A DNA stretch of 64,000 nt from Nocardia sp. (GTDB lineage Bacteria > Actinomycetota > Actinomycetes > Mycobacteriales > Mycobacteriaceae). The notes beneath the pieces were generated by a model. The model was not told the origin of the DNA, did no database searches, and worked only from the letters and a program-made list of their open reading frames with translations. A program made the translations under genes and the position numbers. Positions 9,478-43,784 of the stretch are shown here, one piece after another (positions within the stretch are counted from its first letter, which is position 1; every line of letters begins with the position of its first letter). Where the stretch lies: assembly GCA_014360565.1 (NCBI GenBank), contig JACIXH010000001.1, positions 1-64,000 of the forward strand. The letters run 5' to 3'.

Positions 9478-9483
9478 TACATT
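9478..9483 (+). promoter_or_regulatory. Leaderless-type -10 box of the Mrr-like remnant
   Basis: TACATT at 9478-9483 lies so close to GTG 9491 that the transcript would start at or next to the start codon. The same context (TGAGCTACATT, then seven bases, then GTG) occurs at 55136-55156 ahead of the intact Mrr-like gene. Confidence 0.5.
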
Positions 9484-9490
9484 GCCCGCC

Positions 9491-9637: not shown

Positions 9638-9743
9638 CGCAGGGCGGGGCCGAACCTAACGATCAGGCCTTATATCGTCTGTATGGGTCGGCCGCGGGCT
9701 GACCCCACCGTCCCCGATCTACTCCGCAGGAGCCATACCCACG

Positions 9744-10679
9744 ATGGAACCGGAACAGGCCCTCGGACCTCAGAACCCAGGCGATGGGCCACTCCTCCGC
9801 CGAGTCCGACTCCACCAATCATGGTATCGAGCAACGGTGCTCGGGCTTCCGCGGTGGGGCACGACGCGAGGCCGCTCTCCCCGGCAACTCGGTAGCGTGC
9901 TGTGCGAACAGGACGCCGCCGCCGGTCTGAACTTTGTCTCCCTCGCCGTCAAACAGCTGTACGATGCCCGGCATGCGGCAGGGTGGGGAATCGACCCGTC
10001 TTCCATGGCCTACATGACCTCCAGCCAGGCACTGACCATCAACCTGTTCGGCCTCCTGAGCCAGGACGACGCATGGCTCCTCAGGTGCTTGAACGAGTGG
10101 CTCGGCCGGGTCGACCTCACGAGCATCGACACCGTTGAGCTGGAGTTCGCTCCTGCGCGCCGCAGCCAGCACCTCAATGATCAGACCCGCATCGACGTCC
10201 TCGTCGTCGTCGCGGGCGCCCGTGGCACGGAGGTCGTCGCGATCGAGATCAAGTATACGGACCGCTTCAACAGCCGGTACGTGGACATTTCCACACCCTC
10301 CTATCGCGAGCTGGCCATGAATAGCGGTATCTGGGCGGACCCCACGCACGTGCTGACAGATCGGCGCGTGAATCAGCTCACACGCATCCACGCATTGGCG
10401 ACATCGCACGGCCTATCACTCAACATCCGCACACCCGTCTCTCTACTCGTGTTGGCCCACGAGCTGGATACCTCAGCTGGCCAAATCGTCAACAAGTACA
10501 GGGAATGTGTCACCACATCAGTGGTGCAATTGATATCGCTCCGCACCGCCTGCGAATCAATCGCGACTACGGCCCCACCAAGTCAGCGAACCACTGCTCG
10601 GCTATTGCAACTCCGCTATGGGGACGAGCATGTGAGCGCGTGGCCACAACCGAGCCCGCGCTCAAGCAGCCTTCGGTAG
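9744..10679 (+). CDS. PGN_0703-like PD-(D/E)XK nuclease, putative restriction endonuclease
   Basis: A 311-residue protein. The N-terminal LHQSWYRATVLGLP and AGLNF motifs resemble the PGN_0703 family of putative restriction endonucleases. A PD-(D/E)XK-like core is visible as RIDVLVVVAG followed by VVAIEIKYTDRF, giving the Asp ... Glu-x-Lys arrangement of metal-dependent nucleases. ATG 9744 follows a GGAG box. It is convergent with brxHI (61 bp between stops) at the end of the BREX operon, so it is likely an additional defence nuclease. Target specificity cannot be read from the sequence. No partner methylase of its own is seen. Confidence 0.72.
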   Translation: MEPEQALGPQNPGDGPLLRRVRLHQSWYRATVLGLPRWGTTRGRSPRQLGSVLCEQDAAAGLNFVSLAVKQLYDARHAAGWGIDPSSMAYMTSSQALTINLFGLLSQDDAWLLRCLNEWLGRVDLTSIDTVELEFAPARRSQHLNDQTRIDVLVVVAGARGTEVVAIEIKYTDRFNSRYVDISTPSYRELAMNSGIWADPTHVLTDRRVNQLTRIHALATSHGLSLNIRTPVSLLVLAHELDTSAGQIVNKYRECVTTSVVQLISLRTACESIATTAPPSQRTTARLLQLRYGDEHVSAWPQPSPRSSSLR

Positions 10680-10739
10680 CCGGGCAACGAGAATTGGCGA
10701 CCCACGCTGCGATGGAGTAGCGCCTCACCCGATCGGTTC

Positions 10740-12854: not shown

Positions 12855-14164
12855 AGCGGCAGATCGATGTCGTCGGCCGAGACCGCGTTCCGTTCGACCT
12901 CGGTCAGTTCATCGCCACGCAGCGTCAACGCGTAATGCTTGCGCGGATCCCACTCGGGGAACTGCTCGACCCGGTCGAGCACGTCCGACACCAGCTTCTT
13001 CAGGAACACCCGCGGCGCGATCCCGACGTTGCCGCCGAGCCGGCCCGTCACCGCGCGCGCCAAGTCCTCGATGTAGGCGGCGTCGACGGTTTCGGACACT
13101 CGGGGGCAGTCGTAGGCCGCGGTGTACAGGTCGGTGACCTTCCCGCCGAGTTCGACCAGTGCCTCGATCGTGAAGCCGGGCAACCGGATCTGCGTCGCCC
13201 GGGGGTTGTCCCAGCGCGGGTCGGGGCCGAAGTCGGTGGCCAGTCGCTGCGCCAACGGCGCCAATCGTTGGACACCCTGCTGCCCGTCGTAGAACGCTGG
13301 TGTTCCCGTGATCACCAGGTACAGGCCGGGGAATCGGCCGCCGTGAACGTCGTCGACGAGCTGCCGCAACGCGTTCAACGCCTTGTCCCTGGCGTCGGAG
13401 CGAACCCGCTGCAAGGTCTCGACCTCATCGAGCACGACAAGCAGCCCGTCGTGCCCGCTGTCACGCAGAACGGTCAGCAGTCCCTGAACGAAACTCAACG
13501 CACCGAAGTGGTCCAGGTCGCCTTTGACGCCAGCCTCACGCCGGACACCCGCGGCGACATGCGGTTGCCCGCCGAGCCACGCCGCGAGCCCGTCCGCGCC
13601 CGCGTGGTCACCGGCCGCGCCAGCCGCACGGTAGCCGCGTAGGGCGGCCGCGAAACCTGGTGTGCTGCGGGAGATGTCAGCGAGGCGCTGTTCCAGCAGT
13701 TTCCCGACCGCCGCGTCGAGGGCTTCCGCGTCGTTTTCTGACACGGTGCCGTCGGCGAGAACGTCTTCCTCGAGCGCGAAGATCCACCCGTCGAGAATGG
13801 GCCGCAGCGCGCTGGGCGGGAACTGTTCCGTCGAGAGTTGTTCCACCAGTCGCCGATACACCGTCTCCATCCGATGCAGCGGCGTCTCGGTCTCCGAGAT
13901 CTGCACCTCGGCGACCGCGAAGCCCCGCCGCTTGGCCCGTTCAGCCAACCAGCGGGTGAAAAACGTTTTACCTGCACCGTATTCACCGCGGACCGCCTTG
14001 AACACGCTGCCGCCGCTGGCGACTCGGTCCAGGTCCGCGTCGAGGGCCTCGGTGAACCGGTCGAGCCCGACCGCCAGCACATCGAGTCCGTTGACCGGCA
14101 CCGCACCCCGGCGCAGTGCCTCGATGATGTCGTGGCGGCGCCGGGCAGACACGTTCCCGATCAC
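12851..14164 (-). CDS. brxD: BREX type 2 ATP-binding protein BrxD
   Basis: A 437-residue P-loop ATPase of the BrxD (DUF2791) type. The Walker A motif is GEYGAGKT (60-67), followed by FFTRWLAERA. The Walker B segment LLVVLDEVETLQ lies near residue 245. The N-terminus RRHDIIEALRRGAVPVNGLD is characteristic of the family. ATG 14164 overlaps the pglZ stop, and the gene itself overlaps brxHI. The length is normal for BrxD. Confidence 0.92.
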   Translation of the reverse strand: MIGNVSARRRHDIIEALRRGAVPVNGLDVLAVGLDRFTEALDADLDRVASGGSVFKAVRGEYGAGKTFFTRWLAERAKRRGFAVAEVQISETETPLHRMETVYRRLVEQLSTEQFPPSALRPILDGWIFALEEDVLADGTVSENDAEALDAAVGKLLEQRLADISRSTPGFAAALRGYRAAGAAGDHAGADGLAAWLGGQPHVAAGVRREAGVKGDLDHFGALSFVQGLLTVLRDSGHDGLLVVLDEVETLQRVRSDARDKALNALRQLVDDVHGGRFPGLYLVITGTPAFYDGQQGVQRLAPLAQRLATDFGPDPRWDNPRATQIRLPGFTIEALVELGGKVTDLYTAAYDCPRVSETVDAAYIEDLARAVTGRLGGNVGIAPRVFLKKLVSDVLDRVEQFPEWDPRKHYALTLRGDELTEVERNAVSADDIDLPL

Positions 14165-29693: not shown

Positions 29694-32600
29694 GTGGGTA
29701 TCGGGGACTTCGTCAACAGCCTCGGCGACAAGATCGAAGACGGGCTCGAATCAGCCACCGAGAAGGTCGGCCAGGCCTACAACACCGTCCTCGACGCCGA
29801 GTCCAAAGTCGCGAAAGCTGTCGGCGCCGACGGCCTGTCGAACTGGCTCGACGATCTCGGCGACAAGGTCGTCGACGCGACCGGTGGCGCGGTCCCGGAG
29901 AAACAACTCGGCCAAACCACCGATCCGAAGGAACTGATCCGCGGGGACCCCGCCAAGATCTCCGAAGTCGCCGAGCACGTCGCCAAGATCGGGACCGCGA
30001 TCGACCAAACTGGTGACGCATTGCGCAAGATCGATGTCGCGGAGTGGTCCGGTGAGGCCTCCTCGGCCTTCCATGACGAGTACGCGAAACAGCCGAAACT
30101 GTGGTGGGACGGCGCCGACGCGATGGGCAAAGCCAAAACCGCGTTGGACGCCTGGTACCACGAAGTCACCGCCGCCCAGGCTAAAGCCGCCGACGCGATC
30201 GCGAAATGGGAAGCCGCCGACCGTGAAGAGCGCGACCGCAAGAACGCCTGGAACGCCCAAACCGACGAACAACGCAAAGGCAAGAACCTCACCGACACCT
30301 GGACCGACATCCGCAACGAGGCCCGCGCGATCCTAAACGGTGCCCGCACTCAACGAGACAACGCTGCCAACTCGGCGGTCACCGCGATCACCGCGGCCAC
30401 CGAGACCGCGCCGACCGAACCGCCGTTCCTCTCGCGGTGGGGTAGCAACTTCGAGGATCTGGGCGCGGCGATCGAGCACGCGAAGATCAACTTCTCGTCC
30501 GGTCTGTTGACCTCGCTGACCGGTATGGTGCAGTTCGTCCGATCGGTCACCCCGTTCGACATCTACAACATGACTCACCCCGCCGAGTACATGTCGAAGA
30601 TGTCGGACATGGGCACCGGCATGGTGATCGCCGCAGCCGACCCGAAAGCTACTGCTGCGGCGATGCTGTCGACTTTCAAGACCAACCCGTCGGAAGCGTT
30701 GGGCGCGCTCACCGGCGATGTATTGACCACCGTCGCGACCGGTGGCGCTGGTGGCGTCGCGAAAGGTGCTGCCACCACGGTCAACCGTGCCTCCGAGGTT
30801 GTGGACGCGGCGAACACCGGCCGCAACGTCCTTGACAATGCCGCGGGAGCGGCCGGTAGGCACGCGCCCGAGACGCCCAGCGCCCCGACTCAGCCTGCCG
30901 CCCACGTGCCGGATAATCCGTCGACACCAAGCTCGAATCCTGCGGGGAACACCGGTGATTCGCCAGCCACGAACCCGGCAGGCGCCGCATCGGACAGCGC
31001 GGGACCCAATGCGGCTGGGCAGGCAGGTGACCCTCCGTCTACGAATCCGGCTGATACCCCGAATACGAACCCCAACGCTGCGGCTGATGATTCGGTACCA
31101 GCCAACAACGGCGACGGGACGAATCCCGAAACCGCCGCACCCACCAACCCGCGAGACACCGAGCCTGGTTCACCGACGCCGGACACGGGGTCGCCTGAGA
31201 ATGGGTCAGCGTCACCGAACGGCACCGATGAATCGCCGACCGGCAAACCCACTCCTGATTCCGATGGTGGCAGCCCGAACCAGGATTCGCCCACCCCAGC
31301 TCACAACGATTCCAGCCCCGACCAGCACGACAACTCACCGACCCCGGACGGGGACAACACACCAGGCGACCAGGACTCCGGCTCGCCGACCACGAATCCT
31401 GACAACGACGCAAGCCCTGGCGACACCGACGATGTCACCAACCCCGGTAGCCACGACGGGGACGGCAACACCCCCGATCCGAACAACAACCCCGAGCTTC
31501 GCGCCGGCCACGACAACGGTGGCAACGGCCAGGACAGCGCTGGTCAGGCTGGCCAGGACAAGCCGCCCGAGACCGACTCAACAGATGACCAGACCACCAA
31601 AGTCGGTGACCCGGTCAATGCCGCGAACGGCGAGTTCTTGCTCCCGATCACCGATCTCGAGCTGCCCGGCATCCTTCGCCTGGCACTCAAGCGATCGCAT
31701 CACTCGAACTACCGATTCGGGCGGTGGTTCGGCCCATCGTGGTCGGCCACTCTTGATATGCGAGTGGTCGTCGAAGCTGACTGCGTCACAGTCATTTTCG
31801 AAGACGGCATGCTACTGCCCTACCCGCATGCCGAGGTCGGTGTCGGTGTCGAGCCGATCACCGGCGGGCAGCGATGGAAACTGACCCGCACCGACATCGG
31901 CGGCTACCGCCTGTGGGATCCAGAGCGAGAACTGGTGTGGCACTTCGCCCCAGAACCAACCCTTGCAGGTGTGGACACTCTCCTCGGGAACTACGCGATC
32001 TCCGCGATCACCGACCGACACCACAACCGAATCAGATTCCACTACAACAGCAACGGCGACCCGACCGAAGTCACGCACTCCGGCGGCTACCGAGTCGTGC
32101 TCGATTGCGCAGATGCCCGCGTGACCGCAATCTCAGTTGCTGATCAATCCGGTGAGTTCGAAACCCTCACCCGTATACGTGAATTCGGCTACACCCGCGG
32201 GGATCTGACCAGCGTGGTCAACGGCGTCGGCGGCACCACTCGCTTCACCTACGACGATCACCATCGCATGCTGTCGTGGACCGACTCCAACGGCAGCTCG
32301 GTCACCAACACCTTCGACGAATCCGGCCGAGTCATCGCTCAGCGCGGCACCGACGGCGTCATGAACGCCGACTTCGAATACCTCGAACTCGGTGACGGCA
32401 CCGGCCGCCTCACCCGCATCACCGATTCCCGTGGCGGCGTCACCGGCTTCGGATTCGACAACGACCTCCGCTTGCGCGATCTGCTCGCACCCGATGGCGG
32501 CCACCGCCATATCGAGTACAACGCCGCCCGCAAACCCCTCAAAATCATCGAACCCGATGGTGCGATCACACGCTTCGAGTACACCGCCGAGGGTGACGTC

Positions 32601-35231
32601 GCGAGGAAGATACGTGCGGACGGCACCGATATCAGCATCGAATACGCCTACCCGAACCGTCCTTCGACCATCACGAACCCTGACGGTACGACCTCGCACC
32701 GAGAGTGGGACAAAGCAGGCAACCTCGTGGCGGTCACCAACCCTGCCGGCGCCCGCACCCAATACAGCCACAATGCATGCGGCGCCGTCGCCGAAGTGCG
32801 CGACCCTGACGGCGCGATCACTCGCATCGAGACCGATCTCGCCGGACTGCCAGTGGCAATGATCGACCCGTACGGCGCGAGAACCACCATCCGTCGCGAC
32901 CCATTCGGCCGCCCCGCGGAGGTGACCGATCCGCTCGGTGGCATTACGCACTACAAGTGGACCCCAGAAGGTCGCCCTGCCCGTCGCACCGACCCCGACG
33001 GCTTCGCCGAATCCTGGACCTACGACGGCGAAAACAACCTCCTCGCCCACACCAACCGCAACGGCGCCATCACCCGCTACACCTACTGCGGCTTCGACAG
33101 AGTCGCGAGCCGAACCGACCCCGACGGATCCACCACCCGATACCTCTACGACACCGAATCTCGCCTGATCGCCGTCATCAACCCCCTCGGCCAACGCTGG
33201 ACCTACGAATACGACCTGGCCGGACGACTGGTGTCAGAATCCAACTACACCGGCGCTACGACCACCTACACGCGCACCTCCACCGGCAAAATTGGCAGTG
33301 TCACCCCCGCGACCGGCATCACCCGCCACCACCGCTACGACGCGCTCGGGAACCTCACCTCCATCACCGCAGACTCCGGCGAATACCTGGCCTATACCTA
33401 CGACGCGGCTGGGCGCATCCTCACCGCCAGCAACGGCACCGACGAAATCTGCACCCACAAGCTCGAATTCACCTACACCGCCACCGGCGAGATCGCGACT
33501 CAAACGCTCGACGACCAACCCGCCCTGGTCAACGACTACGACCACCGTGGACGACGGATCCGACGCACGACCCCGACACGCACCGTCACCACCTGGCGTC
33601 ACAACGCACTCAGCCAGGTCACAGCGCTCAACGCTGACGGCACCGACATCACCTTCACCCATGACCCGATGGGTCGCCTGACCCAATGGTGCATAGGCGA
33701 GCTCCAGATCGACCGCACTTTCACACCCAGTGGCGACGTCGCGGCACAGGAAGTCACCGGTTTCCCCAGCACCGCCTTCTCCCTCGACTTCGGCGACACC
33801 CCTCTCGCCCGGCCCGCGCCGTTCGCTCTCCGCCGAGACGACTACTCCTACCGCGCCGACGGGTACCTCACCAACCACACCATCACCCGCCCGAACGCCC
33901 CCACCGTCCGCAAAACCTACGCCCTCGATCCGATCGGCCGGGTCAGCACCATCACTCGCGACAGCACCGTCTCGGAGGCATACGAGTACGACCCGCTCAG
34001 CAACATCACCGCCAGCTTCTCCGACGATGCCGACGATGCCGACGATGCCGACGATGCGGGACCTGACCACACGGCACACGCCGCGATGGACGGTCGCGAG
34101 TACCACAACAACCTTCTCGTTCGAGATGGCCGCAATCACTACTATTACGACCCCGCTGGCCGACTCATACGCAAAGTCACCACTCGCATTTCCCGCAAAC
34201 CAGCTGTATGGCACTACCGCTACAATGCTTTCGACCAACTCACCGACGTCTACACACCCGACCAACAATGGTGGCGGTATACCTTCGATCCGCTCGGCCG
34301 CAGAGTCTCCAAACAGCTGACCCTCGCAGGCGAGCAGTCCCCCACGACGACATCGAGATATACCTGGGACGGTACCCACCTCATCGAGGAATCCACCGAG
34401 GACGGCGTCTACGCATGGCAATATCAGCCCGGTAGCTTCACACCACTCCTGCAACGCCGACCAAAAGCCGGTTCCCCCCAATGGAATTCGATGGCGATAC
34501 TGACAGATCTCGTCGGCAGCCCCATCGGGTTGGTGGACCCGAAAACAGGCGCCAGGGATTCCGAAGTCACGGCATCCAACCTGTGGGGCAAAACGGTCTG
34601 GTCGCAACCGGCATCGACACCACTGCGATTCCCCGGGCAGTACTTCGACCCCGAAACCGGCTTCCACTACAACTACCAACGCACATTCGACCCCGCCGTC
34701 GGCCGATACCTGACCTCCGACCCCCTCGGTCTGGCACCCTCGCCCAACTCCTACCTCTACCCCCACAACCCCACCCGCTACATCGATCCACTCGGCCTGC
34801 AGCCCTACGATCCGCGCAATCAACCCGGGACCGCCACCGGCGGTGAGGACCTTCCCAGCGTGGGCCCCGGAGACCAGTGGCTCCGCGGATCGGAAGGCAA
34901 CGCAGGATGGGTACCCGGCCAGGTCGCCGATGCGCTGCGGGGACAAAGTTTCGACAGCTTCTCCGACTTCAGGCAGCAGTTCTGGAGAACAGTGGCCGAC
35001 GACCCAGATTTGATGTCGCAATTCAGCCGCAACAACCAGAACCTGATGGCCAACGGCAATGCACCCTTCGCCGCAGAGGGCCAGCATGTCGGCGGGGCAG
35101 GCAGATACAATCTGCACCACGTCAACCCGATACACAACGGAGGCGGAGTGTACGACCTCGACAACCTGGCAGTGGTGACACCCAGGTTCCACGCCGAAGT
35201 CCTCGATCCAACATTCCACTACAACCGCTGA
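29694..35231 (+). CDS. Rhs/YD-repeat polymorphic toxin with colicin E7/E9-type HNH DNase tip
   Basis: A 1845-residue protein. Residues 1-390 are an N-terminal helical, type VII-style domain. About 390-640 is a Pro/Asn/Asp/Gly-rich linker. Around 640 the DUF6531 start (VNAANGEFLLPITDLELPG) leads into about twenty YD repeats and the Rhs core end DPLGLAPSPNSYLYPHNP. The last ~130 residues match the colicin E7/E9 nuclease: FDSFSDFRQQFWRTVADDP, QFSRNN, and the HNH core LHHVNPIHNGGGVYDLDN then TPRFH. The histidine that ends the colicin motif (HxxxH) is Leu here, and the Glu before LHH is Asn. GTG 29694 follows GGGGGGAAG. The immunity gene is 10 bp downstream. Confidence 0.9.
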   Translation: MGIGDFVNSLGDKIEDGLESATEKVGQAYNTVLDAESKVAKAVGADGLSNWLDDLGDKVVDATGGAVPEKQLGQTTDPKELIRGDPAKISEVAEHVAKIGTAIDQTGDALRKIDVAEWSGEASSAFHDEYAKQPKLWWDGADAMGKAKTALDAWYHEVTAAQAKAADAIAKWEAADREERDRKNAWNAQTDEQRKGKNLTDTWTDIRNEARAILNGARTQRDNAANSAVTAITAATETAPTEPPFLSRWGSNFEDLGAAIEHAKINFSSGLLTSLTGMVQFVRSVTPFDIYNMTHPAEYMSKMSDMGTGMVIAAADPKATAAAMLSTFKTNPSEALGALTGDVLTTVATGGAGGVAKGAATTVNRASEVVDAANTGRNVLDNAAGAAGRHAPETPSAPTQPAAHVPDNPSTPSSNPAGNTGDSPATNPAGAASDSAGPNAAGQAGDPPSTNPADTPNTNPNAAADDSVPANNGDGTNPETAAPTNPRDTEPGSPTPDTGSPENGSASPNGTDESPTGKPTPDSDGGSPNQDSPTPAHNDSSPDQHDNSPTPDGDNTPGDQDSGSPTTNPDNDASPGDTDDVTNPGSHDGDGNTPDPNNNPELRAGHDNGGNGQDSAGQAGQDKPPETDSTDDQTTKVGDPVNAANGEFLLPITDLELPGILRLALKRSHHSNYRFGRWFGPSWSATLDMRVVVEADCVTVIFEDGMLLPYPHAEVGVGVEPITGGQRWKLTRTDIGGYRLWDPERELVWHFAPEPTLAGVDTLLGNYAISAITDRHHNRIRFHYNSNGDPTEVTHSGGYRVVLDCADARVTAISVADQSGEFETLTRIREFGYTRGDLTSVVNGVGGTTRFTYDDHHRMLSWTDSNGSSVTNTFDESGRVIAQRGTDGVMNADFEYLELGDGTGRLTRITDSRGGVTGFGFDNDLRLRDLLAPDGGHRHIEYNAARKPLKIIEPDGAITRFEYTAEGDVARKIRADGTDISIEYAYPNRPSTITNPDGTTSHREWDKAGNLVAVTNPAGARTQYSHNACGAVAEVRDPDGAITRIETDLAGLPVAMIDPYGARTTIRRDPFGRPAEVTDPLGGITHYKWTPEGRPARRTDPDGFAESWTYDGENNLLAHTNRNGAITRYTYCGFDRVASRTDPDGSTTRYLYDTESRLIAVINPLGQRWTYEYDLAGRLVSESNYTGATTTYTRTSTGKIGSVTPATGITRHHRYDALGNLTSITADSGEYLAYTYDAAGRILTASNGTDEICTHKLEFTYTATGEIATQTLDDQPALVNDYDHRGRRIRRTTPTRTVTTWRHNALSQVTALNADGTDITFTHDPMGRLTQWCIGELQIDRTFTPSGDVAAQEVTGFPSTAFSLDFGDTPLARPAPFALRRDDYSYRADGYLTNHTITRPNAPTVRKTYALDPIGRVSTITRDSTVSEAYEYDPLSNITASFSDDADDADDADDAGPDHTAHAAMDGREYHNNLLVRDGRNHYYYDPAGRLIRKVTTRISRKPAVWHYRYNAFDQLTDVYTPDQQWWRYTFDPLGRRVSKQLTLAGEQSPTTTSRYTWDGTHLIEESTEDGVYAWQYQPGSFTPLLQRRPKAGSPQWNSMAILTDLVGSPIGLVDPKTGARDSEVTASNLWGKTVWSQPASTPLRFPGQYFDPETGFHYNYQRTFDPAVGRYLTSDPLGLAPSPNSYLYPHNPTRYIDPLGLQPYDPRNQPGTATGGEDLPSVGPGDQWLRGSEGNAGWVPGQVADALRGQSFDSFSDFRQQFWRTVADDPDLMSQFSRNNQNLMANGNAPFAAEGQHVGGAGRYNLHHVNPIHNGGGVYDLDNLAVVTPRFHAEVLDPTFHYNR
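34023..34058 (+). repeat. Four GACGATGCC/G tandem 9-mers inside the Rhs gene
   Basis: Four in-frame 9-bp units encode DDA repeated four times, in a loop between YD repeats. The tract can expand or contract without a frameshift. Confidence 0.85.
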
Positions 35232-35241
35232 GGAGACGAAT

Positions 35242-35472
35242 ATGCCGCAACTAGATCGCCAACAACTGATTGATCTCGTCACCCGACTCTCCGAAGGCCA
35301 GGGCACTGAAGAGGAACAGGATCAATGGATGACGACCCTGAAAGAATCGGTATCCGATCCGAAAATCAGCGACTACATCTTCTGGGATAACTCGAATCCG
35401 CCCCTCACCCCCGAACAGATCGTCGACAAAGCCCTGGCATATCAACCAATTGCGCTCGGGGGTCCCGAGTAA
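35242..35472 (+). CDS. Im7/Im9-like colicin-type DNase immunity protein
   Basis: A 76-residue acidic protein. It follows the E-colicin immunity pattern: an initial helix (LIDLVTRLSEG), an acidic helix with TEEEQDQW, then the loop DPKISDYIFWDN, which parallels HPSGSDLIYYP of Im9, then LTPEQIVDKALAYQP, parallel to SPSGIVNTVKQWR. The Im9 Tyr-Tyr pair (YYP) is replaced by FWD. ATG 35242 has GGAG in the 10-bp gap after the toxin stop. Position, size and pattern together make it the cognate inhibitor of the Rhs DNase tip. Confidence 0.82.
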   Translation: MPQLDRQQLIDLVTRLSEGQGTEEEQDQWMTTLKESVSDPKISDYIFWDNSNPPLTPEQIVDKALAYQPIALGGPE

Positions 35473-35653: not shown

Positions 35654-36319
35654 ATGGTCGATCCGCCGCGCACTATCGTTCACCGCGAATGGACTGTCTA
35701 CGACGGGCAACCATGGCTTCACGTCACCTGCAACGAGATCACCACGCCTGATGGCATCAGCAGATCCCATCACGCGATCCGACTGAACACCGTCGTGACC
35801 GTCATCGCAGTCGACGATCATGCCCGCGTCCTTTTGATGCGCCGGCATCGCTGGATCGTCGACACCATCGGTCTCGAGTCGCCTGGCGGGATCGTCGATG
35901 ACGGCGAAGACCCTCACGCGTGCGCGCGCCGAGAGTTGTTGGAGGAAACAGGATTCGAGATCGGGCCGCTGGAATTGATCGCTGATCTCGAACCTATGCC
36001 CGGCCTGGTCCACACTCGCCATCTGGTCTTCCTCGGCCGTGATCCACGCCAGGCCGCGGAACCAACCGATGGCGAAGAGGCCAGTCAGTTGATGTGGATC
36101 CCGCTGAGCCACACCGCAGACCTGCTCGCCCACGGCGAGCTCCTCGGCACCGGGACCGCGGTCGGAATGCTCACCGCCGCCGCGATACTCGCCAGACCCG
36201 TCGCCGCTGACTCCGAACGAAGTCGCGACACCACGAACACCGAGCTCGTAACGACCCGGAAGTCATCCCCGGCCCTGGTGCGCTCCTCGAGTCCGGGGAC
36301 TGATTCGTCTGTTCGGTGA
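35654..36319 (+). CDS. NUDIX hydrolase
   Basis: A 221-residue protein with a full NUDIX box GGIVDDGEDPHACA followed by RRELLEETGF (GX5EX7REXXEEXG). An N-terminal beta segment (TVYDGQPWLHVTCNEI) and the -GLESPGG- lead-in resemble ADP-ribose pyrophosphatase-type NUDIX enzymes; the substrate is not determined. The C-terminal ~40 residues are Ser/Thr/Arg-rich and may be unstructured. It lies 180 bp downstream of the toxin-immunity pair on the same strand but with its own spacing, followed by a P-loop kinase gene. Confidence 0.8.
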   Translation: MVDPPRTIVHREWTVYDGQPWLHVTCNEITTPDGISRSHHAIRLNTVVTVIAVDDHARVLLMRRHRWIVDTIGLESPGGIVDDGEDPHACARRELLEETGFEIGPLELIADLEPMPGLVHTRHLVFLGRDPRQAAEPTDGEEASQLMWIPLSHTADLLAHGELLGTGTAVGMLTAAAILARPVAADSERSRDTTNTELVTTRKSSPALVRSSSPGTDSSVR

Positions 36320-36350
36320 TGGGATGCGCTGGTTCTGCGACGATTGATCG

Positions 36351-36968
36351 ATGACGAATCCGATCAATTCTGCAGGGGCTCTTGCCTTCTCCGCTACCGG
36401 GGCTCGGGAGTTGGAGCAGTTGGCCAGCATCCACACCGATGGCGTGACCGTCGTGTGCGGTTTTCCCGCGGCGGGCAAGAGCACTGCCACCGGCGTGCTG
36501 GCGAGGTTGCTCAACGCTGTCGTGCTCGACAAGGACAAGTTCGCACCCCGGCTCGAGGAATCGGTGATGGCCGAGTTGACCGGCAACCCCTACGACCGCG
36601 ACAGCGACCTCTACCGCCGCATCGTCTCACCGCACCTCTACCAGGCCCTGGTCCAGCAGGCGATCACTATCGCCGAACAGTGCCCCGTCGTGGTCGACGC
36701 CCCGTTCCTGGGATACATCAACACCGCAACCCAACAGGGCATCCGGTTGGCCGACTACCTCCGGTCGCTCACCGACACCGCCGACATCCCGATCCGTACC
36801 GTGTGGGTGAGCACAGACACCGACCGGATCCGTGACCGTATGAAGCAGCGTGGAGCCGAGCGTGACGAACCGAAACTCGCCGACTGGAACAGCTACCGCG
36901 ACTCGGTCCTGCACTCCGGTCTCGCCGAGGCGGGCCCGGCTGTCACCGACCACGTCATCGTGAACTGA
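36351..36968 (+). CDS. P-loop kinase (AAA_33-type)
   Basis: A 205-residue protein with Walker A GFPAAGKST near residues 37-45, an acceptor-site-like segment VVLDKDKFAPRL, and an Arg-rich lid (RDRMKQRGAERDEPKLADW). This matches small zeta-toxin/chloramphenicol-phosphotransferase-like or nucleoside-type kinases. The phosphate acceptor is unknown. It sits between a NUDIX hydrolase and a fructosamine-kinase-like protein on one strand, suggesting a small-molecule phosphorylation or repair set. Confidence 0.7.
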   Translation: MTNPINSAGALAFSATGARELEQLASIHTDGVTVVCGFPAAGKSTATGVLARLLNAVVLDKDKFAPRLEESVMAELTGNPYDRDSDLYRRIVSPHLYQALVQQAITIAEQCPVVVDAPFLGYINTATQQGIRLADYLRSLTDTADIPIRTVWVSTDTDRIRDRMKQRGAERDEPKLADWNSYRDSVLHSGLAEAGPAVTDHVIVN

Positions 36969-37006
36969 ACCGCGAACCCCCACCACGTCACGAAAGACCC
37001 TGTTCA

Positions 37007-37858
37007 GTGCTCAACGATGCCCACCTGTCGGACCTGCTCGGCACCTCAATAGAGACCGTCGTCGACCTCTGCGCACGACACTCCTGGACCCTGCACCGCG
37101 CTCTCACGAGCGACGGTCAGCAGATCTTCGTCAAGACCGCCGCCGACTGCGCGCCCGTTTTCGCTGCGGAGGCGGCCGGGCTGCGCTGGCTCGCGGCCGA
37201 GACCGAATCGAGCCCGGTGGCCGAAGTTCTCGCGGTCGACGACCGGATAATCGTGTTGCCCTGGCTGGCCCCGCAGGCGCCCACGGTCGATGCCGCACGA
37301 CGATTCGGCCGCGAACTGGCGACCATGCACTCCCGCTCGGCTGAGTTCTTCGGTGCTGGCTGGAACGGCTACATTGCCGACATCCCCCTCGACAACACGC
37401 GCTCCGGCCAACGGTGGGGACAGTGGTATGCCGAACGCCGATTGCTGCCATACCTTCGCATCGGCCACCAACACCTCGACCCTGCCGAGGTGCGGTTGGT
37501 CGAGAAGATCATCGCCAGCATCGATGCTCTCGCAGGTCCGGAGGAACCACCGGCCCGCATCCATGGCGACTTGTGGTCGGGCAACCTGTTGTGGAGCGCT
37601 GGGCGCGGTGTCCTGATCGACCCGGCGGCCCATGCTGGTCACCGCGAAACCGACCTCGCGATGCTCGCGTTGTTCGGCAACGACCACCTCGACAACATCC
37701 TCGACGGCTACACCGAGACCGTACCGTTGGCCGAGGGCTGGCGCGCCCGTATCCCCCTGCACCAACTCCATCCCCTGCTCGTGCACCTCGTGCTGTTCGG
37801 TGGCCGTTACCGACGCGCTCTAGTCAGGGCCGCGAATGCTGCTCTACGCGCTGGGTAG
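37007..37858 (+). CDS. Fructosamine-kinase-like phosphotransferase
   Basis: A 283-residue kinase-fold protein. The Brenner-type motif RIHGDLWSGNLLW and the metal-binding LIDPAAHAGHRETDLAM are those of fructosamine-3-kinase-family proteins, which phosphorylate protein-bound ketoamines to promote deglycation. An N-terminal ATP-binding lobe includes QQIFVKTA and FAAEAAGLRWL. GTG 37007 is used. The gene follows the P-loop kinase by 38 bp, so the two may be co-transcribed. Confidence 0.78.
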   Translation: MLNDAHLSDLLGTSIETVVDLCARHSWTLHRALTSDGQQIFVKTAADCAPVFAAEAAGLRWLAAETESSPVAEVLAVDDRIIVLPWLAPQAPTVDAARRFGRELATMHSRSAEFFGAGWNGYIADIPLDNTRSGQRWGQWYAERRLLPYLRIGHQHLDPAEVRLVEKIIASIDALAGPEEPPARIHGDLWSGNLLWSAGRGVLIDPAAHAGHRETDLAMLALFGNDHLDNILDGYTETVPLAEGWRARIPLHQLHPLLVHLVLFGGRYRRALVRAANAALRAG

Positions 37859-37937
37859 CCGGGCACTCGTCCGGCCGCCTGCGCGCCGACCGCGAAAATC
37901 AGTGGCAGCCAGATGATGCGCGGCACCAGGATGCTGG

Positions 37938-38075
37938 CATGGCCAACGAGATGATCACCGACCACCGGATCATCTGGCGCGACCTTCCCGAACCGACGCG
38001 CGACGCTGTCGAAGAATGTGGCGGTGCGTGGCGCGCGAGCGACAACCCTTGGACAACTTCGCAGTCGAGTCGGTG
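37938..38075 (+). pseudogene. 5' fragment of an APH-type phosphotransferase gene
   Basis: A 45-codon ORF, MANEMITDHRIIWRDLPEPTRD..., resembles only the extreme N-terminus of APH-family phosphotransferases, where a W-x-D-L-P-x-x-x-R-D-A-V-E segment precedes the ATP-binding lobe. The rest of a kinase is absent and the ORF ends next to the split acetyltransferase's 3' end. It is read as a degraded remnant with low confidence. Confidence 0.35.
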
Positions 38076-38092
38076 AACATTCACAGGTCCAA

Positions 38093-38176
38093 TCAGCTGA
38101 TCCAGCACCGGCGAATGTCGCCGTCATCGGTCCAGGGTTCGATCGCTTCCAAGGTCCCCCCGCAAGATTCGATGAC
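38093..38176 (-). pseudogene. Displaced 3' end of the split GNAT acetyltransferase gene
   Basis: The minus strand encodes VIESCGGTLEAIEPW then TDDGDIRRCWIS followed by TGA. This is the typical ending of a GNAT protein after the N-x-G-S-R-R-V-I-E motif. The 5' part of that gene ends abruptly at SRRI at 39513 on the same strand. Placing the two segments together restores an ordinary ~190-residue acetyltransferase, so the intervening DNA is an insertion. Confidence 0.75.
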
Positions 38177-38183
38177 GTATTGA

Positions 38184-38197
38184 CTGAACTACCTTCA
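38184..38197 (+). repeat. Left terminal inverted repeat of the DUF4238 insertion
   Basis: CTGAACTACCTTCA matches the reverse complement of 39495-39508 (CTGAACTGGCTTCA) at 12 of 14 positions. It lies 7 bp inside the edge of the insertion. Confidence 0.6.
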
Positions 38198-38312
38198 TAA
38201 TCCTTGCAGGTCATCACAGGTTTCTGCTAGCTTTCCCCGCCATGCACGAAGAGGGTCCCGAGCGAGGTCTGTCGAGACTCGTTGTGCCCCCAGCGAAGCC
38301 CGCGTCGTGCTC

Positions 38313-39419
38313 CTAGCCAGTGGTCCATCGGGATAAGGGCCACTGGGGCGAATGGGGCGCGTCGGTCCATCGGGTCGGCAGGAGAACGGCGCGAGCGAAC
38401 TCCGGCGCGGAGGTGATGTTACTTGGCCAGTCCTGCGCCTCTGGGTAGGTGGGTATCCGAATCTGCGATGCGATCGAGGTTTCTCTTTTTTCGAAAACCA
38501 GCCGATTGCAGTTGTAGCAGAATTCGCGATTTAGGAACTTTGTCTCAGTCGAAGATAGTTCGAACGGGGGCTTGATCTTCACATTCTTGCGGCTCAAAAT
38601 TAAGAGTCGATTAGGGTTGATCGGAAATACGATTATCTCCGAGTTTCTAATCGAGACTGGAAACTGGCGAGTGTTTCGCTTCATTGGAATTCCGAGTACG
38701 GGTTCATCACAGGTCAATAGATCGTCTGTGGAGCTTGCCAGCCAGTAGTCTCGGTCGTTTTCAATCACCGGGGCGATAACGTTCTTCCAGGCACCGATGG
38801 CTGCATCGATTGCCTTGGGCTTAGTTTCGCTACTGACGGCCTGTTTGGCGAGTATCTGATTCACGATAGCCTGGTGTCTCGCTACTGAGTACTCAATGCC
38901 GTACTCGCGGCACAAGATCGGAAGCAGGCCGGGAATGTTCAGAAGATGGCGGGCTCCGTAGCGATTCACTGCCGCGTCGATGCCCAAGTCGGTCTGCCGC
39001 CCACGCTGGGTGCGCTGGCTTTGTAGACTGATGTATACGGCTAGGTTGGAGATAAGGTCTCTATGGTTGATTCTGCCGTCGGGCTGATCGTCCAGCGTGC
39101 GGAGCCAGCTCGCGGCCCGGTTTTCTATGCGTCCCATGTGGGTCTCGAACCACATATCTGGATTTGCGTCGGCATCGATGTCGGGTGCCGATATTTGATA
39201 GAAGTTGTCCTCGACGGCGGTCGATTCAATGGGTACGCACGTTGATTCTTTGGTGTCAACGTTTGTGACCTGAATTTCCCTGATTCCGTCGGTAGTCCAC
39301 CGCTTTAGGTACATTCTTGGCACGTAGTGGTGTCGGAATGTGGTTTGGGCGTTCTTACGGGTCTCTTCTTTGGATTTTTCGATCTCGACATCGGTTAGCC
39401 AACGATTGACTGTAGTCAC
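38313..39419 (-). CDS. DUF4238 domain protein, cargo of the insertion
   Basis: A 368-residue protein. The N-terminal FRHHYVPRMYLKRW motif is the signature of DUF4238 proteins, whose biochemical function is unknown. Other visible features are a helical middle (QTDLGIDAAVNRYGARHLL), the pair LLTCDEPVLGIP, and a late FPINPNRLLIL strand. Base composition is far lower in G+C than the neighbours, and codons such as ATA and AGA are used, consistent with recent transfer. It is the only gene of the 1.3-kb insertion, so it may benefit the host or element directly; a defence role is possible but not shown. Confidence 0.82.
   Translation of the reverse strand: MTTVNRWLTDVEIEKSKEETRKNAQTTFRHHYVPRMYLKRWTTDGIREIQVTNVDTKESTCVPIESTAVEDNFYQISAPDIDADANPDMWFETHMGRIENRAASWLRTLDDQPDGRINHRDLISNLAVYISLQSQRTQRGRQTDLGIDAAVNRYGARHLLNIPGLLPILCREYGIEYSVARHQAIVNQILAKQAVSSETKPKAIDAAIGAWKNVIAPVIENDRDYWLASSTDDLLTCDEPVLGIPMKRNTRQFPVSIRNSEIIVFPINPNRLLILSRKNVKIKPPFELSSTETKFLNREFCYNCNRLVFEKRETSIASQIRIPTYPEAQDWPSNITSAPEFARAVLLPTRWTDAPHSPQWPLSRWTTG
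38317..38346 (-). terminator. Hairpin overlapping the end of the DUF4238 gene
   Basis: CCAGTGGTCC (38317-38326) pairs with GGGCCACTGG (38337-38346) with one mismatch around a 10-base loop. It spans the last codons of the gene, so it may terminate its transcript. Confidence 0.35.
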
Positions 39420-39494
39420 AGTCTGTAGTGTAGGTGTAGGTCACGCAGCCGCGGGGAAGTCGATTCAGCAGGGCGACGAACTCTGGCAGTCAGT

Positions 39495-39508
39495 TGAAGC
39501 CAGTTCAG
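39495..39508 (-). repeat. Right terminal inverted repeat of the DUF4238 insertion
   Basis: TGAAGCCAGTTCAG is the inverted partner of 38184-38197 (12 of 14 matches). It lies 4 bp inside the right edge of the insertion. Confidence 0.6.
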
Positions 39509-39512
39509 AGAA

Positions 39513-40004
39513 GATCCGCCGCGATCCGATGTTCTTGTCGTCACAGGTGACCAGGATCCGGTCGATGCCGATCGACCGGGCAACAACGACGCTCTGCTGA
39601 AGAATGACGGTGCCGAGCCCACGGCGCCGGTACGCAGGTAGCACCCCGTACCCGATGTGCCCACCGCGGCGACGCAGGCCCTCGTTGAGGGTATGCCTGA
39701 TCGAGGTGCGCCCGACGATCCGACCGTCCACCGTCGCCACCAAGTACGTCGTGGCGACGATCCCCTCCCTCAATTTCATTCCGCGCCGTTCCTCCTCGCG
39801 GACAGTGTGGTAGTCCGACCAGCTCAAATCTGGTGCCAAATCCAGCGCGAAAGTGAAGCAGTCTTGCGCATCCATCACCTGGTGCGCTGGACGCACTTCC
39901 CCTTCGTCAGCAGTCTGCAACGGCCGTAGGCGAACCGACTCAAAAGTCGCAGGCAGTCCCGGCGCGGTCCGCTGGTGACCGTCTGACCTCATCTCATCGT
40001 TCAT
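39513..40004 (-). pseudogene. GNAT acetyltransferase, 5' part, interrupted
   Basis: 164 codons of a GNAT N-acetyltransferase from ATG 40004: ESVRLRPLQTADEGE, LVATVDGRIVGRTSIRH, the acetyl-CoA loop YGVLPAYRRRGLGT, and LVTCDDKNIGSRRI. After SRRI the frame enters foreign sequence (FSELASTDCQSSSPC) and stops at 39465. The missing C-terminus lies at 38093-38176. The truncated protein would lose the final beta strands, so it is probably inactive. It follows the NUDIX and kinase genes on the minus strand and may once have been their operon partner. Confidence 0.8.
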
Positions 40005-40104
40005 GAACCTGATCGTGACACTGCGACCCCGCTGGTGCCCACCGGTTTTCCGTGTGATCGGGCAGGCAGAACTGGTTCGGCGACCAACTCGCTGGGTCAG
40101 ACCA

Positions 40105-40602
40105 CTAGCGATCCCCGATGTCTCGGTAGATCCGGTCCGAAACAGCGTCGAGAGTCCAGCTCGCATCGATGCGGACTTCGTCGACGAACGGCAGCGGCTG
40201 CCATCCGTGATACCAGGAAGCCATCTGCTCCGGCGGAATCGTCGCCGCCTGAGGGCGCCCCGCGTGGCGGGTCAGGGTCTGCGCGAAGGTGAGATCGAAA
40301 CTGTAGAACAGCGACGTTCCGGCCGAGTCCGCGAGGCGTTCCAGCATGGTCCCGTACCGCTGGACGTGCAGGATTCCCTCGACGATCACCACCATCCCCC
40401 GCCCCAAACACGAACGGGCGATCTCCTCGATCAGATCGATGTTGAACGCGCCCGGCTCGTCCGCCTCGCGGATCATGTTCCGCCGCACCAGATCCTGGGA
40501 AACCACCGCGCACTGGCCCTGTTCGAATCGGCGCTGAACAGCGATCGCGGTGGTCGATTTACCCGATGCCGAGTTTCCACGGATCACTACCAACGGTGTC
40601 AT
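40105..40602 (-). CDS. P-loop kinase
   Basis: A 165-residue kinase. Walker A is IRGNSASGKSTTA (residues 7-19) and further family-like segments are VVSQDLVRRNMI, VVIVEGIL and DLTFAQTLTRHAGRP. This resembles small AAA_33-type kinases of unknown acceptor. ATG 40602 overlaps the stop of the upstream NUDIX gene by four bases, so both proteins are made together. A NUDIX-kinase pair points to nucleotide-like or phosphorylated small-molecule turnover, as in the other NUDIX-kinase pair at 35654-36968. Confidence 0.75.
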   Translation of the reverse strand: MTPLVVIRGNSASGKSTTAIAVQRRFEQGQCAVVSQDLVRRNMIREADEPGAFNIDLIEEIARSCLGRGMVVIVEGILHVQRYGTMLERLADSAGTSLFYSFDLTFAQTLTRHAGRPQAATIPPEQMASWYHGWQPLPFVDEVRIDASWTLDAVSDRIYRDIGDR

Positions 40603-41174
40603 CGCACGGTCGTCGGCTGCAGGACGGTGTCGAGCTTGCGGATGAACCGGCCGAGGTGCGGGTCCGAATCAGGTAGCCCGTGGGGGTCGAGATCCCACCA
40701 CTCACCACCGTCGAATTCGCCCGGGTCGAGTTCATGACGACGGGCCCGCTCGCCACGGGCGACGAACCACAGCGAAACGTCCACGTGTCCGGTGGTGGGG
40801 CCGATGGTCGAAGTCACGGTCAGAAGCAGTGGCCGTTGGCCGACGACATCGAAGCTCGCGTCGATGCCCAGTTCCTCACGGGCTTCTCGGCGCGCTGCGG
40901 CGAACGGATGCTCGAAGGGATCTAGATGCCCGCCCATCGGGAGGTGAAGGCCGGACTTGCGGTGCCGACCGAGGTAAAGGCCACGCTCGGTGGGGTCGAC
41001 CAGGACCACATAGGCCACCAGGTGGGGCGAGGGCGTCGCAGGCGGAATGCGACGGTAGACATCGGTCGTCGCGGCGAGCCAGTCCAGGGTCTGTTCGATG
41101 TGTTGCTGCTCGAGATCGTCGAACGGGGTCATCGCGGAAATCAGTTCGGCGACGGCTGCGGTAGATGGATCCAT
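40599..41174 (-). CDS. NUDIX hydrolase
   Basis: A 191-residue protein. The NUDIX box reads GGHLDPFEHPFAAA then RREAREELGI. The preceding LHLPMGG strand and a later WWDLDPHGLPDSDPHLGRFI segment are typical of the family. It is the first gene of a minus-strand set with the coupled kinase and the interrupted acetyltransferase, divergent from the seryl-tRNA synthetase gene (208 bp between starts). The substrate is unknown. Confidence 0.8.
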   Translation of the reverse strand: MDPSTAAVAELISAMTPFDDLEQQHIEQTLDWLAATTDVYRRIPPATPSPHLVAYVVLVDPTERGLYLGRHRKSGLHLPMGGHLDPFEHPFAAARREAREELGIDASFDVVGQRPLLLTVTSTIGPTTGHVDVSLWFVARGERARRHELDPGEFDGGEWWDLDPHGLPDSDPHLGRFIRKLDTVLQPTTVR

Positions 41175-41338
41175 GGCGCGCGAGGATAGTCGCGGCCTCC
41201 GACACAGATCCGGGTCCCGTCAGCACCTGACGCGTCCTACTCGGTTCAAGCCGGGTTCGGCAGATTCTCCCGCTCTGAGTGTTGAGGTGACTGCGCAACA
41301 GGGCATCCTCTGTCGACCAACGGCCCTCCGACAAGGCA

Positions 41339-41344
41339 TACAAT
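41339..41344 (+). promoter_or_regulatory. Candidate -10 box of the seryl-tRNA synthetase gene
   Basis: TACAAT at 41339-41344 lies 38 bp upstream of ATG 41383. No convincing -35 element is seen at the usual spacing, and no T-box-like leader is visible in the 208-bp intergenic region. Confidence 0.35.
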
Positions 41345-41382
41345 GCGCTGTCACACTGTCGACCCGAGGATGGATTCCCGGC

Positions 41383-42645
41383 ATGTTGGATAAGCGATTT
41401 GTCCGCGAGAACCCCGACGCGGTGAAGGAAGCCGCCAGTTCGAAGGGAGTCGCTGTCGATGTCGACGCACTCCTCTCTCTCGATGAGTCCGGGCGTTCCC
41501 TCCAGCATGATCTAGACAACGCCCAGGCCCGGCGCAACTCGATCTCCAAAGAGTTCGGCAAGGCCGACGCTGCAGGCAAAGACCAGCTCAGGGCGGAGAG
41601 CACCAAACTCGGCGACGAGATCTCGAAGCTCAAGGCCGACCTAGAGGTGAATCTGGCCGATCAGCGCGAGATCCTCCTGCGTCTGCCACAGATCCCTTGG
41701 TCGGGTGCGCCTATCGGTGCCGACGAATCAGCCAACACGGTCGTCCGGACTTGGGGCGCGCCACCTGAATTCGATTTCGAACCGCGTGATCATGTTGATC
41801 TGGCCGAGTCCCGGGGCTGGGTAGAGTTCGCGCGGGCGCGCAAGGTCGCTGGTGAGCGCGCCTATGCGCTGCGTGGTGATCTGATGCTGCTCGAGCGCGC
41901 GGTGCACTCCTACGCCCTGGATCTGCTCGTGCGGCAGGACTTCGTCCCGATCAGTGTTCCGGCTCTTGTTCGTGAGCAGGCACTTGTCGGGACGGGGATG
42001 TTCCCAGGCCATCGCGCCGAAACCTACGAGCTGCCAGCCGATGACACGTTCCTGGCTGGGACAGCGGAGGTGGCCTTGGTGGGCCTTCATTCCGACGAGA
42101 TCCTCGAGTTGCGTGACCTTCCGTTGAAGTATGCGGGGATGTCGCCGTGCTTCCGCCGCGAAGCGGGTTCCGCGGGCCGCGACGTGCGAGGCCTGCTGCG
42201 GGTGCACCAGTTCGAGAAGGTCGAGCAGTTCGTGATCTGCGAGGCTGACCCCGAGGAATCGGCGCGCTGGCACGCAGCGCTGCTGGCGAGTGCCGAGACT
42301 GTTCTCCAGGAACTGGGGCTTGCTTATGAGGTCGTCGAGTGCGCGACCGGAGACATGGGTTTGGGCAAGGTCAGGATGAACGACATCAACACCTGGTTGC
42401 CGAGCCTTGGCCAATACCGCGAAACGCACTCGTGCTCGACTCTGGGGACCTGGCAGGGTCGCCGCGCGAATCTGCGCTACCGCGACGCCGAGGGCAAGGT
42501 GCAGTTCGCCGCCACGCTCAACAACACCGCCGTGGCCACGCCGCGACTGCTGGCGGCACTGTTGGAGAACTTCCAGACCGCCGACGGCAAGATTGCGGTG
42601 CCGACGGTCCTTCAGCCCTACATGGGTGGCAGGGAACTGATCTGA
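41383..42645 (+). CDS. serS: Seryl-tRNA synthetase, probable cluster-associated paralogue
   Basis: A 420-residue class II synthetase. The N-terminal coiled-coil arm (about 30-105) is followed by the catalytic core: motif 2 FRREAGSAGRDVRG then LLRVHQFEKVE, and motif 3 TLNNTAVATPRLLAALLENF. The serine-site region ETHSCSTLGTWQGRR differs from the usual EVSSCSN-x-x-D-F-QARR, and NNT replaces NGS in motif 3. ATG 41383 gives the normal MLDKRFVRENPDAV start. The frame upstream to 41098 is not coding. The neighbours are not those of a housekeeping serS and the gene borders a biosynthetic-type operon, so it may confer resistance or supply seryl-tRNA. Confidence 0.9.
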   Translation: MLDKRFVRENPDAVKEAASSKGVAVDVDALLSLDESGRSLQHDLDNAQARRNSISKEFGKADAAGKDQLRAESTKLGDEISKLKADLEVNLADQREILLRLPQIPWSGAPIGADESANTVVRTWGAPPEFDFEPRDHVDLAESRGWVEFARARKVAGERAYALRGDLMLLERAVHSYALDLLVRQDFVPISVPALVREQALVGTGMFPGHRAETYELPADDTFLAGTAEVALVGLHSDEILELRDLPLKYAGMSPCFRREAGSAGRDVRGLLRVHQFEKVEQFVICEADPEESARWHAALLASAETVLQELGLAYEVVECATGDMGLGKVRMNDINTWLPSLGQYRETHSCSTLGTWQGRRANLRYRDAEGKVQFAATLNNTAVATPRLLAALLENFQTADGKIAVPTVLQPYMGGRELI

Positions 42646-43784
42646 AAAATCTGCTCTAGCACCACGCCCACTTGCCCGGTTGCGAGGACGAGTTCGGCGA
42701 TCGGAACGAACTCATTCGGTGAGTGGGCGTGGCGCAGGCTTCCGGGTCCGAATACGACAGCCGGAGTACCTGCGGGGCCGAAGAATCGGGCGTCTGAACC
42801 ACCCAGAAACTGCTCGGTGGCGACTTGCTGGCCGGTCTCCCGCTGTGCGTGCGCAAACGCGCGTGCCAGGTCGGTGTCGGTACCGATGAAATGGGAGTGA
42901 CAGCCTCCTCCTTGGTAGGCAGCGACAGCAATGCGTACTTTGTCGCTGCTCAAGCTGGCTGCCGCCGTGCGGTAGAGCTCGGCGATGTGATCGCGATCTT
43001 GGCTGGGCAGCACCCTGATGTCGGCACGCAGGACGCATTCGCCAGCGACAGTGCCGGGGTGACCTGGGATCTGCATATAGCCGACGTTGACGCGGGGATG
43101 GCCCGGAAAGTCGGGGTCGGTCGGCAGTTTCGCCACTAGTTCGTCGAGGGCGTCGATGTAGCTGGTCGCGGCGCGGAATGCGTCCGCGCCGTGTAGGGGG
43201 GTGCCGGCATGGGTCGTCCGCCCGGTGATGGTGACTTCGGCCCACGCGAGCCCGAGTTGCGCCAGCGAGGGTCTGCATCCGGTCGGCTCGCCGACGATTG
43301 CAGCGTCGGCGGTGAGTAGGCCGTGCTCGGCCAGTAGCTGTGCACCCCAGACGCTCCCGTCTTCTTCGTCAGCGACGCACTGCACGATCAATGTGCCGGA
43401 CCAGTCAGAGCGCGCGGCGAGAGTAGTTGCCGCGCAAAGGAACACCGCCATCGCGCCTTTGGTGTCGCAGGCGCCGACTCCGTAGAGGCGGTCTCCATCG
43501 ATGGCGGCAGCGAAGGGATCTGTATTCCACAGGTTGGTGCCGCCGACTGCGGTGGCGGGTTTGGTGTCGGCGTGTGCTTGCAGGATGACGCGCGGGCCTG
43601 GCCCGCGGCAGAGTGTGGCGATCAGGTTGGCCCGCAGTGGATCTTGTCCGATCCACTCGATGTCGAATCCGTGTGCGGTGAGCAGTTCTGCGACGTAGGC
43701 ACCGAGGATGGCTTCGTTGCCGGGCGGGTTTTGGGTGTCGATGCCGATCAGCGCACTGCACACGGCGGTGACGTCGAGGTTCAC
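42618..43784 (-). CDS. M20 family metallo-amidohydrolase (ArgE/DapE-like)
   Basis: A 388-residue zinc peptidase/deacylase. Metal- and catalysis-linked motifs are LQAHADTKP, GVGACDTKGA, ADEEDGSVWG, VGEPTG and PGSLRHAHSPNEFV. The central dimerisation domain begins at HAGTPLHGADAF. GTG 43784 overlaps the upstream Fe-S gene's stop (GTGA). Its 3' end overlaps the 3' end of serS by 28 bp, convergently. As the last gene of the minus-strand operon it could remove an acyl or aminoacyl group from the cluster's product or precursor. Confidence 0.88.
   Translation of the reverse strand: MNLDVTAVCSALIGIDTQNPPGNEAILGAYVAELLTAHGFDIEWIGQDPLRANLIATLCRGPGPRVILQAHADTKPATAVGGTNLWNTDPFAAAIDGDRLYGVGACDTKGAMAVFLCAATTLAARSDWSGTLIVQCVADEEDGSVWGAQLLAEHGLLTADAAIVGEPTGCRPSLAQLGLAWAEVTITGRTTHAGTPLHGADAFRAATSYIDALDELVAKLPTDPDFPGHPRVNVGYMQIPGHPGTVAGECVLRADIRVLPSQDRDHIAELYRTAAASLSSDKVRIAVAAYQGGGCHSHFIGTDTDLARAFAHAQRETGQQVATEQFLGGSDARFFGPAGTPAVVFGPGSLRHAHSPNEFVPIAELVLATGQVGVVLEQIFQISSLPPM

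Follow-up and report, generated by a model that had tools for sequence, protein, structure and literature searches.

An interrupted acetyltransferase gene

The region analyzed here (hereafter the window) is a 64,000-nucleotide stretch of DNA from a Nocardia sp. genome, in which a GNAT acetyltransferase gene is interrupted by an insert of 1,339 bp (positions 38174..39512). The 5' part of the gene (MNDEMRSD...NIGSRRI; PF00583, E = 7.8e-12) lies on the minus strand at 39513..40004, and the 3' part (IESCGGTLEAIEPWTDDGDIRRCWIS*), recognized by comparison with intact homologues, lies on the same strand at 38093..38173. The truncated protein stops at ..NIGSRR, 1.3 kb away from the C-terminus that it lacks. 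Two NUDIX genes and two small kinases lie in the wider neighbourhood (35654-43784) together with a fructosamine-kinase-like gene, an M20 peptidase and an apparent seryl-tRNA synthetase, possibly as a biosynthetic or nucleotide-metabolism cluster. Nearby (29694-35472), a 76-aa ORF, possibly its immunity partner, comes after a 1845-aa RHS-repeat protein with an HNH-like C-terminus.

Homologues of the acetyltransferase were detected in about 28 other genomes (E <= 1e-20), and 14 intact ones from the genus Nocardia were compared across the interrupted site, where they read SRR-IIES-CGG with small variations and continue to a C-terminal YWI(D)*. Once 38174..39512 is removed, GACAAGAACATCGGATCGCGGCGGATC and ATCGAATCTTGCGGG join to give DKNIGSRRIIESCGG, and the rejoined flanks (NIGSRRI|IESCGG) match the consensus of the intact homologues. 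Comparison of the joined flanks with these homologues revealed no target duplication, and nothing was lost from the target either. The insert has a G+C content of 0.52-0.56, against about 0.65 around it, and its sole gene encodes a DUF4238 protein. A second genome (G038) matches the whole window at 99.9% identity or more and carries the same insert as a twin copy.

The original prediction, made from the window alone, held that a DUF4238-carrying insertion had split the acetyltransferase gene, that its C-terminus lay 1.3 kb away on the same strand, and that the DNA in between was A+T-rich and encoded nothing else. All of this was confirmed, and the alignment with uninterrupted homologues (RRIIESCGG..YWI(D)*) that it called for defines the empty site as SRR-I|IES-CGG. 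The insertion is genuine, its limits are sharply defined, and a known type of element accounts for it.

Relatives of the insert in Nocardia and other actinobacteria

A DNA search showed that the terminal region beside the GNAT C-terminus recurs elsewhere in the genus Nocardia. In genome G016, the 115-bp proximal region is conserved at 95% identity and adjoins two tyrosine recombinase genes (PF00589; 394 and 838 aa). The GNAT 5' part was searched for in this genome and not found, so the distal junction of its copy has apparently been lost. A sister copy, common to seven other Nocardia genomes (including N. carnea, N. puris, N. speluncae, N. wallacei, N. arizonensis, and N. asiatica), occupies the same nucleotide of the orthologous GNAT gene, and in all seven its proximal region is still joined to the GNAT C-terminus. 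Between the ends of this sister copy are the recombinase pair, MFS/USP cargo, the DUF4238 gene, and IS5 and Tn3 sequences that represent later insertions. Its recombinase genes are damaged by a stop or frameshift, and DUF4238 lies about 12 kb from the proximal region in six of the seven genomes, namely those with both on one contig. The window and sister copies have ends, target, and cargo in common, whereas the recombinases are found only in the sister. In the copy of genome G034, as in the window, the joined GNAT flanks restore the intact consensus. We also observed that seven Nocardia genomes classified as separate species share, at 99.9-100% identity, a 12-19-kb block (L060-L066) that comprises the sister element, the GNAT, kinase and NUDIX genes, genes of Tn3 and IS5, and an apparent conjugation membrane protein, a case of recent inter-species transfer.

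The ends of the wider family were derived by aligning copies on tnpA. In clear copies the proximal end, TTRACTGAACTA, lies 143-158 bp upstream of the tnpA match, and together with the distal end, TAGTTCAGAGAA, it brackets 14 other copies, between 3.6 and 12.8 kb long, in Nocardia, Rhodococcus, and Streptomyces; Mycolicibacterium also has the proximal end. In full copies two tyrosine recombinases, one normal-sized and the other very long, are encoded next to the TTRACTGAACTA end, and cargo fills the rest as far as TAGTTCAGAGAA. Across 152 Nocardia genomes the exact proximal end occurs 43 times, as compared to about 12 occurrences of the reversed control pattern (counted by eye). Among these genomes, the only proximal ends paired with an exact distal end and lacking a neighbouring recombinase were those of the window and its G038 twin. 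Neither a close recombinase nor a second pair of exact ends was detected in the window genome (G000) or G038; G000 has one related but distant recombinase (42%).

Some of these copies deserve individual mention. Two copies in genome G089 (L155 and L156) have equal lengths (4,553 bp), identical tnpA proteins and a methyltransferase-like cargo gene each, and reside at different loci of one chromosome, which is evidence of recent movement. On a Rhodococcus qingshengii plasmid (L169, 5567-15518), a DNA-ligase gene harbours a copy whose cargo comprises two CrcB genes and an enolase (apparent fluoride resistance) together with a universal stress protein.

Ends of the insert and the 6-bp block

When scored against the end consensus from the 14 other copies, the tnpA-proximal end of the window copy (TTGACTGAACTA; 38180..38191, plus strand) matched TTRACTGAACTA at 12 of 12 positions, and the tnpA-distal end (CAGTTCAGAGAA; 39501..39512) matched TAGTTCAGAGAA at 11 of 12. 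Both family ends are found exactly at the two breakpoints, a coincidence with a chance probability of about 8e-15 given consensi that were defined mostly from other copies. Inverted repeats matching at 12 of 14 positions, CTGAACTACCTTCA at 38184 (plus strand) and CTGAACTGGCTTCA at 39495-39508 (minus strand), have no exact matches anywhere else in the 6.39-Mb genome. Taken alone, a repeat of this quality is at chance level in shuffled flanks; it becomes meaningful because both ends match the family end consensus at the breakpoints. The repeats had been described as lying near the edges of the insert; they are real, and they begin right at the ends of the element (38174..39512).

At the proximal junction, the block GACGTA (38174..38179) travels with the element and gives the codons TAC-GTC before IESCGG. 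The segment VIESCGG, originally taken to be missing from the acetyltransferase, is thus of mixed origin: IESCGG is GNAT sequence, but the V derives from the TACGTC of the element. The GACGTA block is the same in the window, G034, and G016 copies despite their differing GNAT targets, and the proximal 6 bp are likewise constant across other copies at different places (GCCCTA in L155, L156, and L158). The 6 bp at the distal junction (39513..39518; GATCCG on the plus strand, CGGATC in the gene) are target sequence and correspond to the GNAT codons R-I. These distal 6 bp vary between copies and belong to the target where checked.

The tnpA-proximal terminal region retained in the window (38180..38288), which was found by DNA search, ends 34 bp upstream of the position at which tnpA starts in G016. 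Including the 6-bp block (38174-38288), it is identical to G016 at 109 of 115 positions (95%) and to G034 at 102 of 115. Next to it is the presumed deletion joint (38289..38312), flanked on one side by the proximal end as found in G016 and G034 and on the other by the 3' end of DUF4238 as found in G034. About 24 bp at this joint match neither neighbouring sequence.

Target choice

The window and G034 insertions look independent and site-specific from their sequence divergence. At four-fold sites, the two lineages differ by 12.5% in DUF4238, as opposed to 52% in GNAT, 63% in the kinase and 49% in the NUDIX gene. With so little divergence in the cargo relative to the flanking genes, insertion at the same nucleotide is most simply explained by two independent events. 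In addition, the G016 copy lies against a GNAT paralogue, at the codon used by the window copy.

In the tnpA tree the target follows the clade. All nine copies of the ligase clade are inserted at one site of an ATP-dependent DNA ligase, a site targeted repeatedly in several species; both copies of the GNAT clade are in GNAT, and four further copies interrupt a different tyrosine recombinase at its Cys motif. This rule has exceptions: two identical copies in G089 lie in a recombinase gene and an aminotransferase gene. The Cys-motif insertions (L154, L155, L158, and L163) fall at CxHEHxC..CP, a motif close to the C-terminal end of other tyrosine recombinases, and elements of this clade knock out one another's recombinase genes. 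Elsewhere, a relative in genome G102 (L149, about 7891-13656) splits an apparent HIT-family gene precisely at its histidine-triad motif, as judged by eye, and adjoins a kinase resembling that at 40105-40602 of the window.

These patterns may reflect an undescribed family rule, under which each clade would home to one conserved coding motif (RRI|IES of GNAT, the KxDG region of DNA ligase, the Cys motif of rival recombinases), the 6-bp block would always remain at the recombinase end, and DUF4238 and other defence or stress genes would be exchangeable cargo. We consider this proposal evenly poised between right and wrong.

Comparison with known systems

Actinobacterial Tn554-related elements with a short (~350-aa) and a long (611-828-aa) tyrosine recombinase, such as those of pREL1 and pNOCA01, are described by Van Houdt et al. 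2012 (PMC3414803), and the full-length relatives described here share their recombinase sizes and order as well as their actinobacterial hosts. Homologues of the short recombinase are present in pREL1 (66%) and pNOCA01 (40%). In the sections consulted, PMC3414803 describes neither ends nor targets nor DUF4238 cargo for these elements. The window copy has the end sequences at both borders (12/12 and 11/12) and is inserted site-specifically in a conserved gene with no duplication of the target, but it differs from these elements in having lost both recombinases. Since the recombinase pair is absent from the window copy and present in its relatives (G016, and in damaged form the sister), we describe the insert as a deletion derivative of, rather than a complete member of, the group.

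The family resembles Tn554 of Staphylococcus (TnpA, TnpB, and TnpC) in pairing a large tyrosine recombinase with one of normal size, in inserting at a fixed site within a conserved gene, and in having a 6-bp junction block. In Tn554 the cargo is at the end away from the recombinases, as in the full copies found here. On the other hand, the targets here are GNAT, DNA ligase, and others. No TnpC-like gene was seen among the ORFs of the relatives, and no staphylococcal record appeared among the 60 plasmid matches listed. The window copy, with GNAT as its target and neither TnpC nor the Tn554 site, is not Tn554 proper. Paired recombinases, short imperfect inverted repeats, a 6-bp spacer and a non-conjugative nature are also features of SEs, which differ in having four core genes, gammaproteobacterial hosts, and a spacer that changes sides. 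In SEs, and in Tn554 as reported, the 6-bp block is copied from one side of the donor and ends up on the opposite side at its new location (PMC10214605), whereas here it stays at the tnpA-proximal end. This pattern, seen in a modest number of copies, looks different from that of SEs and Tn554, and if the block is indeed fixed at the recombinase end, the order of strand exchange would differ from theirs.

The DUF4238 cargo gene

The DUF4238 gene (38313..39419, minus strand; 368 aa, GTG start) has its 3' end at the presumed deletion joint. Its product matches PF14022 with E = 6.4e-31 and 108.2 bits (curated cut-off 27) and keeps the invariant residues of the family, whose conserved motifs include HH..P..RW and TCDEPV. 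Between the window and G034 copies, dN is 0.039 and dS 0.213 (dN/dS about 0.19); the gene is intact and under purifying selection.

A single-gene DUF4238 system from a P2 hotspot shields E. coli from T7 (PMC9122126), and on the strength of this distant family member a role in phage defence is plausible and the leading guess for the window gene. Both have a DUF4238 domain, a single gene, and a mobile element as carrier, yet the match of the window protein to the corresponding PADLOC profile (DUF4238-Pers) is weak (E = 1.4e-4). No DUF4238 relatives were found in phage records and viral contigs. Around other DUF4238 homologues (28-46%, from Nocardia and Rhodococcus plasmids) no similar ends were detected, and DUF4238 therefore has no general link to this element; an inverted-repeat scan around such homologues returned chance-level repeats only. 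It is one cargo among several, the others being MFS/USP, MarR, methyltransferase, and fluoride-exporter genes.

Origin of the insert

Judged on comparative sequence data, the window insert is very probably a decayed internal-deletion derivative of an actinobacterial Tn554-related transposon that lost its recombinases and kept both ends and DUF4238. The window copy is placed in this family by its ends, target, and cargo, the recombinase being absent, and no recombinase-bearing intermediate was seen at this locus in the window's own species. The comparison of copies shows that those bearing recombinases insert cleanly, without target duplication, at a fixed codon position. Full copies would excise or copy out through the two recombinases acting at both ends and enter a conserved gene at that position (here RR-I|IES-CGG of GNAT), the 6-bp block staying with the element proximally and the target's own 6 bp ending up distal. 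A copy with recombinases and DUF4238 presumably reached the window lineage, where a later internal deletion, running from a point 34 bp ahead of tnpA as far as the end of DUF4238, would have removed tnpA, tnpB, and any further cargo. What remains, two ends and an intact cargo gene, would be non-autonomous and is probably stranded, since neither G000 nor G038 has a close recombinase; it would stay immobile unless a related recombinase pair arrived. DUF4238 may have been retained for its usefulness, most likely in anti-phage defence.

Intact ends, a whole cargo gene, and the distant recombinase (42%) in G000 would also suit a 1.3-kb unit that was already non-autonomous on arrival, being MITE-like or akin to a mobile insertion cassette, and was moved in trans by a recombinase pair now absent. 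Were the remnant itself still able to move in trans, its circle joint would be expected to read AGTTCAGTCAA-TACGTC-TTCTCTGAAC. Mobile insertion cassettes and MITE-like elements have transposition ends and a passenger gene without a transposase; they are associated with DDE-type IS families and are found in multiple copies. The window insert, by contrast, is a single-locus remnant of a tyrosine-recombinase element, present in G000 and the near-identical G038 only; the 43 exact proximal ends in 152 Nocardia genomes include no other recombinase-less exact pair, and a full-length sister has the same cargo at the same site. We therefore regard this history as improbable. Slightly less probable still is a single ancient insertion that was inherited, with gene conversion between the window and G034 lineages subsequently homogenising the element. 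The shared nucleotide in orthologous GNATs, the shared cargo, and the shared 6-bp proximal block would be expected from it. Against it stand the drop in four-fold-site divergence at the element (12.5%, from 49-63% in the genes beside it), the third insertion, which lies at the same codon but next to a different GNAT paralogue, and the ligase clade, which repeats its targeting in several species.

Two further readings are hardly credible. Short inverted repeats at both ends recall an ordinary DDE-transposase IS or MITE, an identity that we reject: there is no target duplication, the family members encode tyrosine recombinases (PF00589) rather than DDE transposases, and the recombinase-bearing copies contradict it. 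Likewise, a chance arrangement, in which DUF4238 and a stray GNAT-like peptide happen to follow a GNAT that is naturally short, could draw on the frequency of 12/14 inverted repeats in shuffled flanks, but it is rejected because the flanks rejoin at the exact consensus codon and both end consensi lie at the breakpoints (about 8e-15).

A deletion derivative is not what the original prediction had in mind. It expected the termini to recur in other genomes, and so they do, bracketing copies in Nocardia, Rhodococcus, and Streptomyces. They belong, however, to a recombinase-encoding Tn554-related family whose sister copy carries both recombinase genes in damaged form, which does not fit a transposase-less element with DUF4238 as its single cargo. 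A recombinase-less mobile unit is made unlikely by the lack of a second short exact-ended copy in 152 Nocardia genomes, and the suggestion that the element reveals how an orphan DUF4238 family moves found no support, DUF4238 being one of several cargoes.

As far as the literature searched shows, what is new is the exact anatomy, the use of GNAT as a target, the carriage of DUF4238, and clade-specific targeting of coding motifs. An apparently orphan insertion is thereby explained, and the exact ends, targets, and spacer rule of a widespread but little-studied group of actinobacterial transposons allow insertions and remnants to be found from sequence. For DUF4238, a family of obscure biochemistry with one reported anti-phage case, they provide a concrete vehicle of spread in Nocardia.
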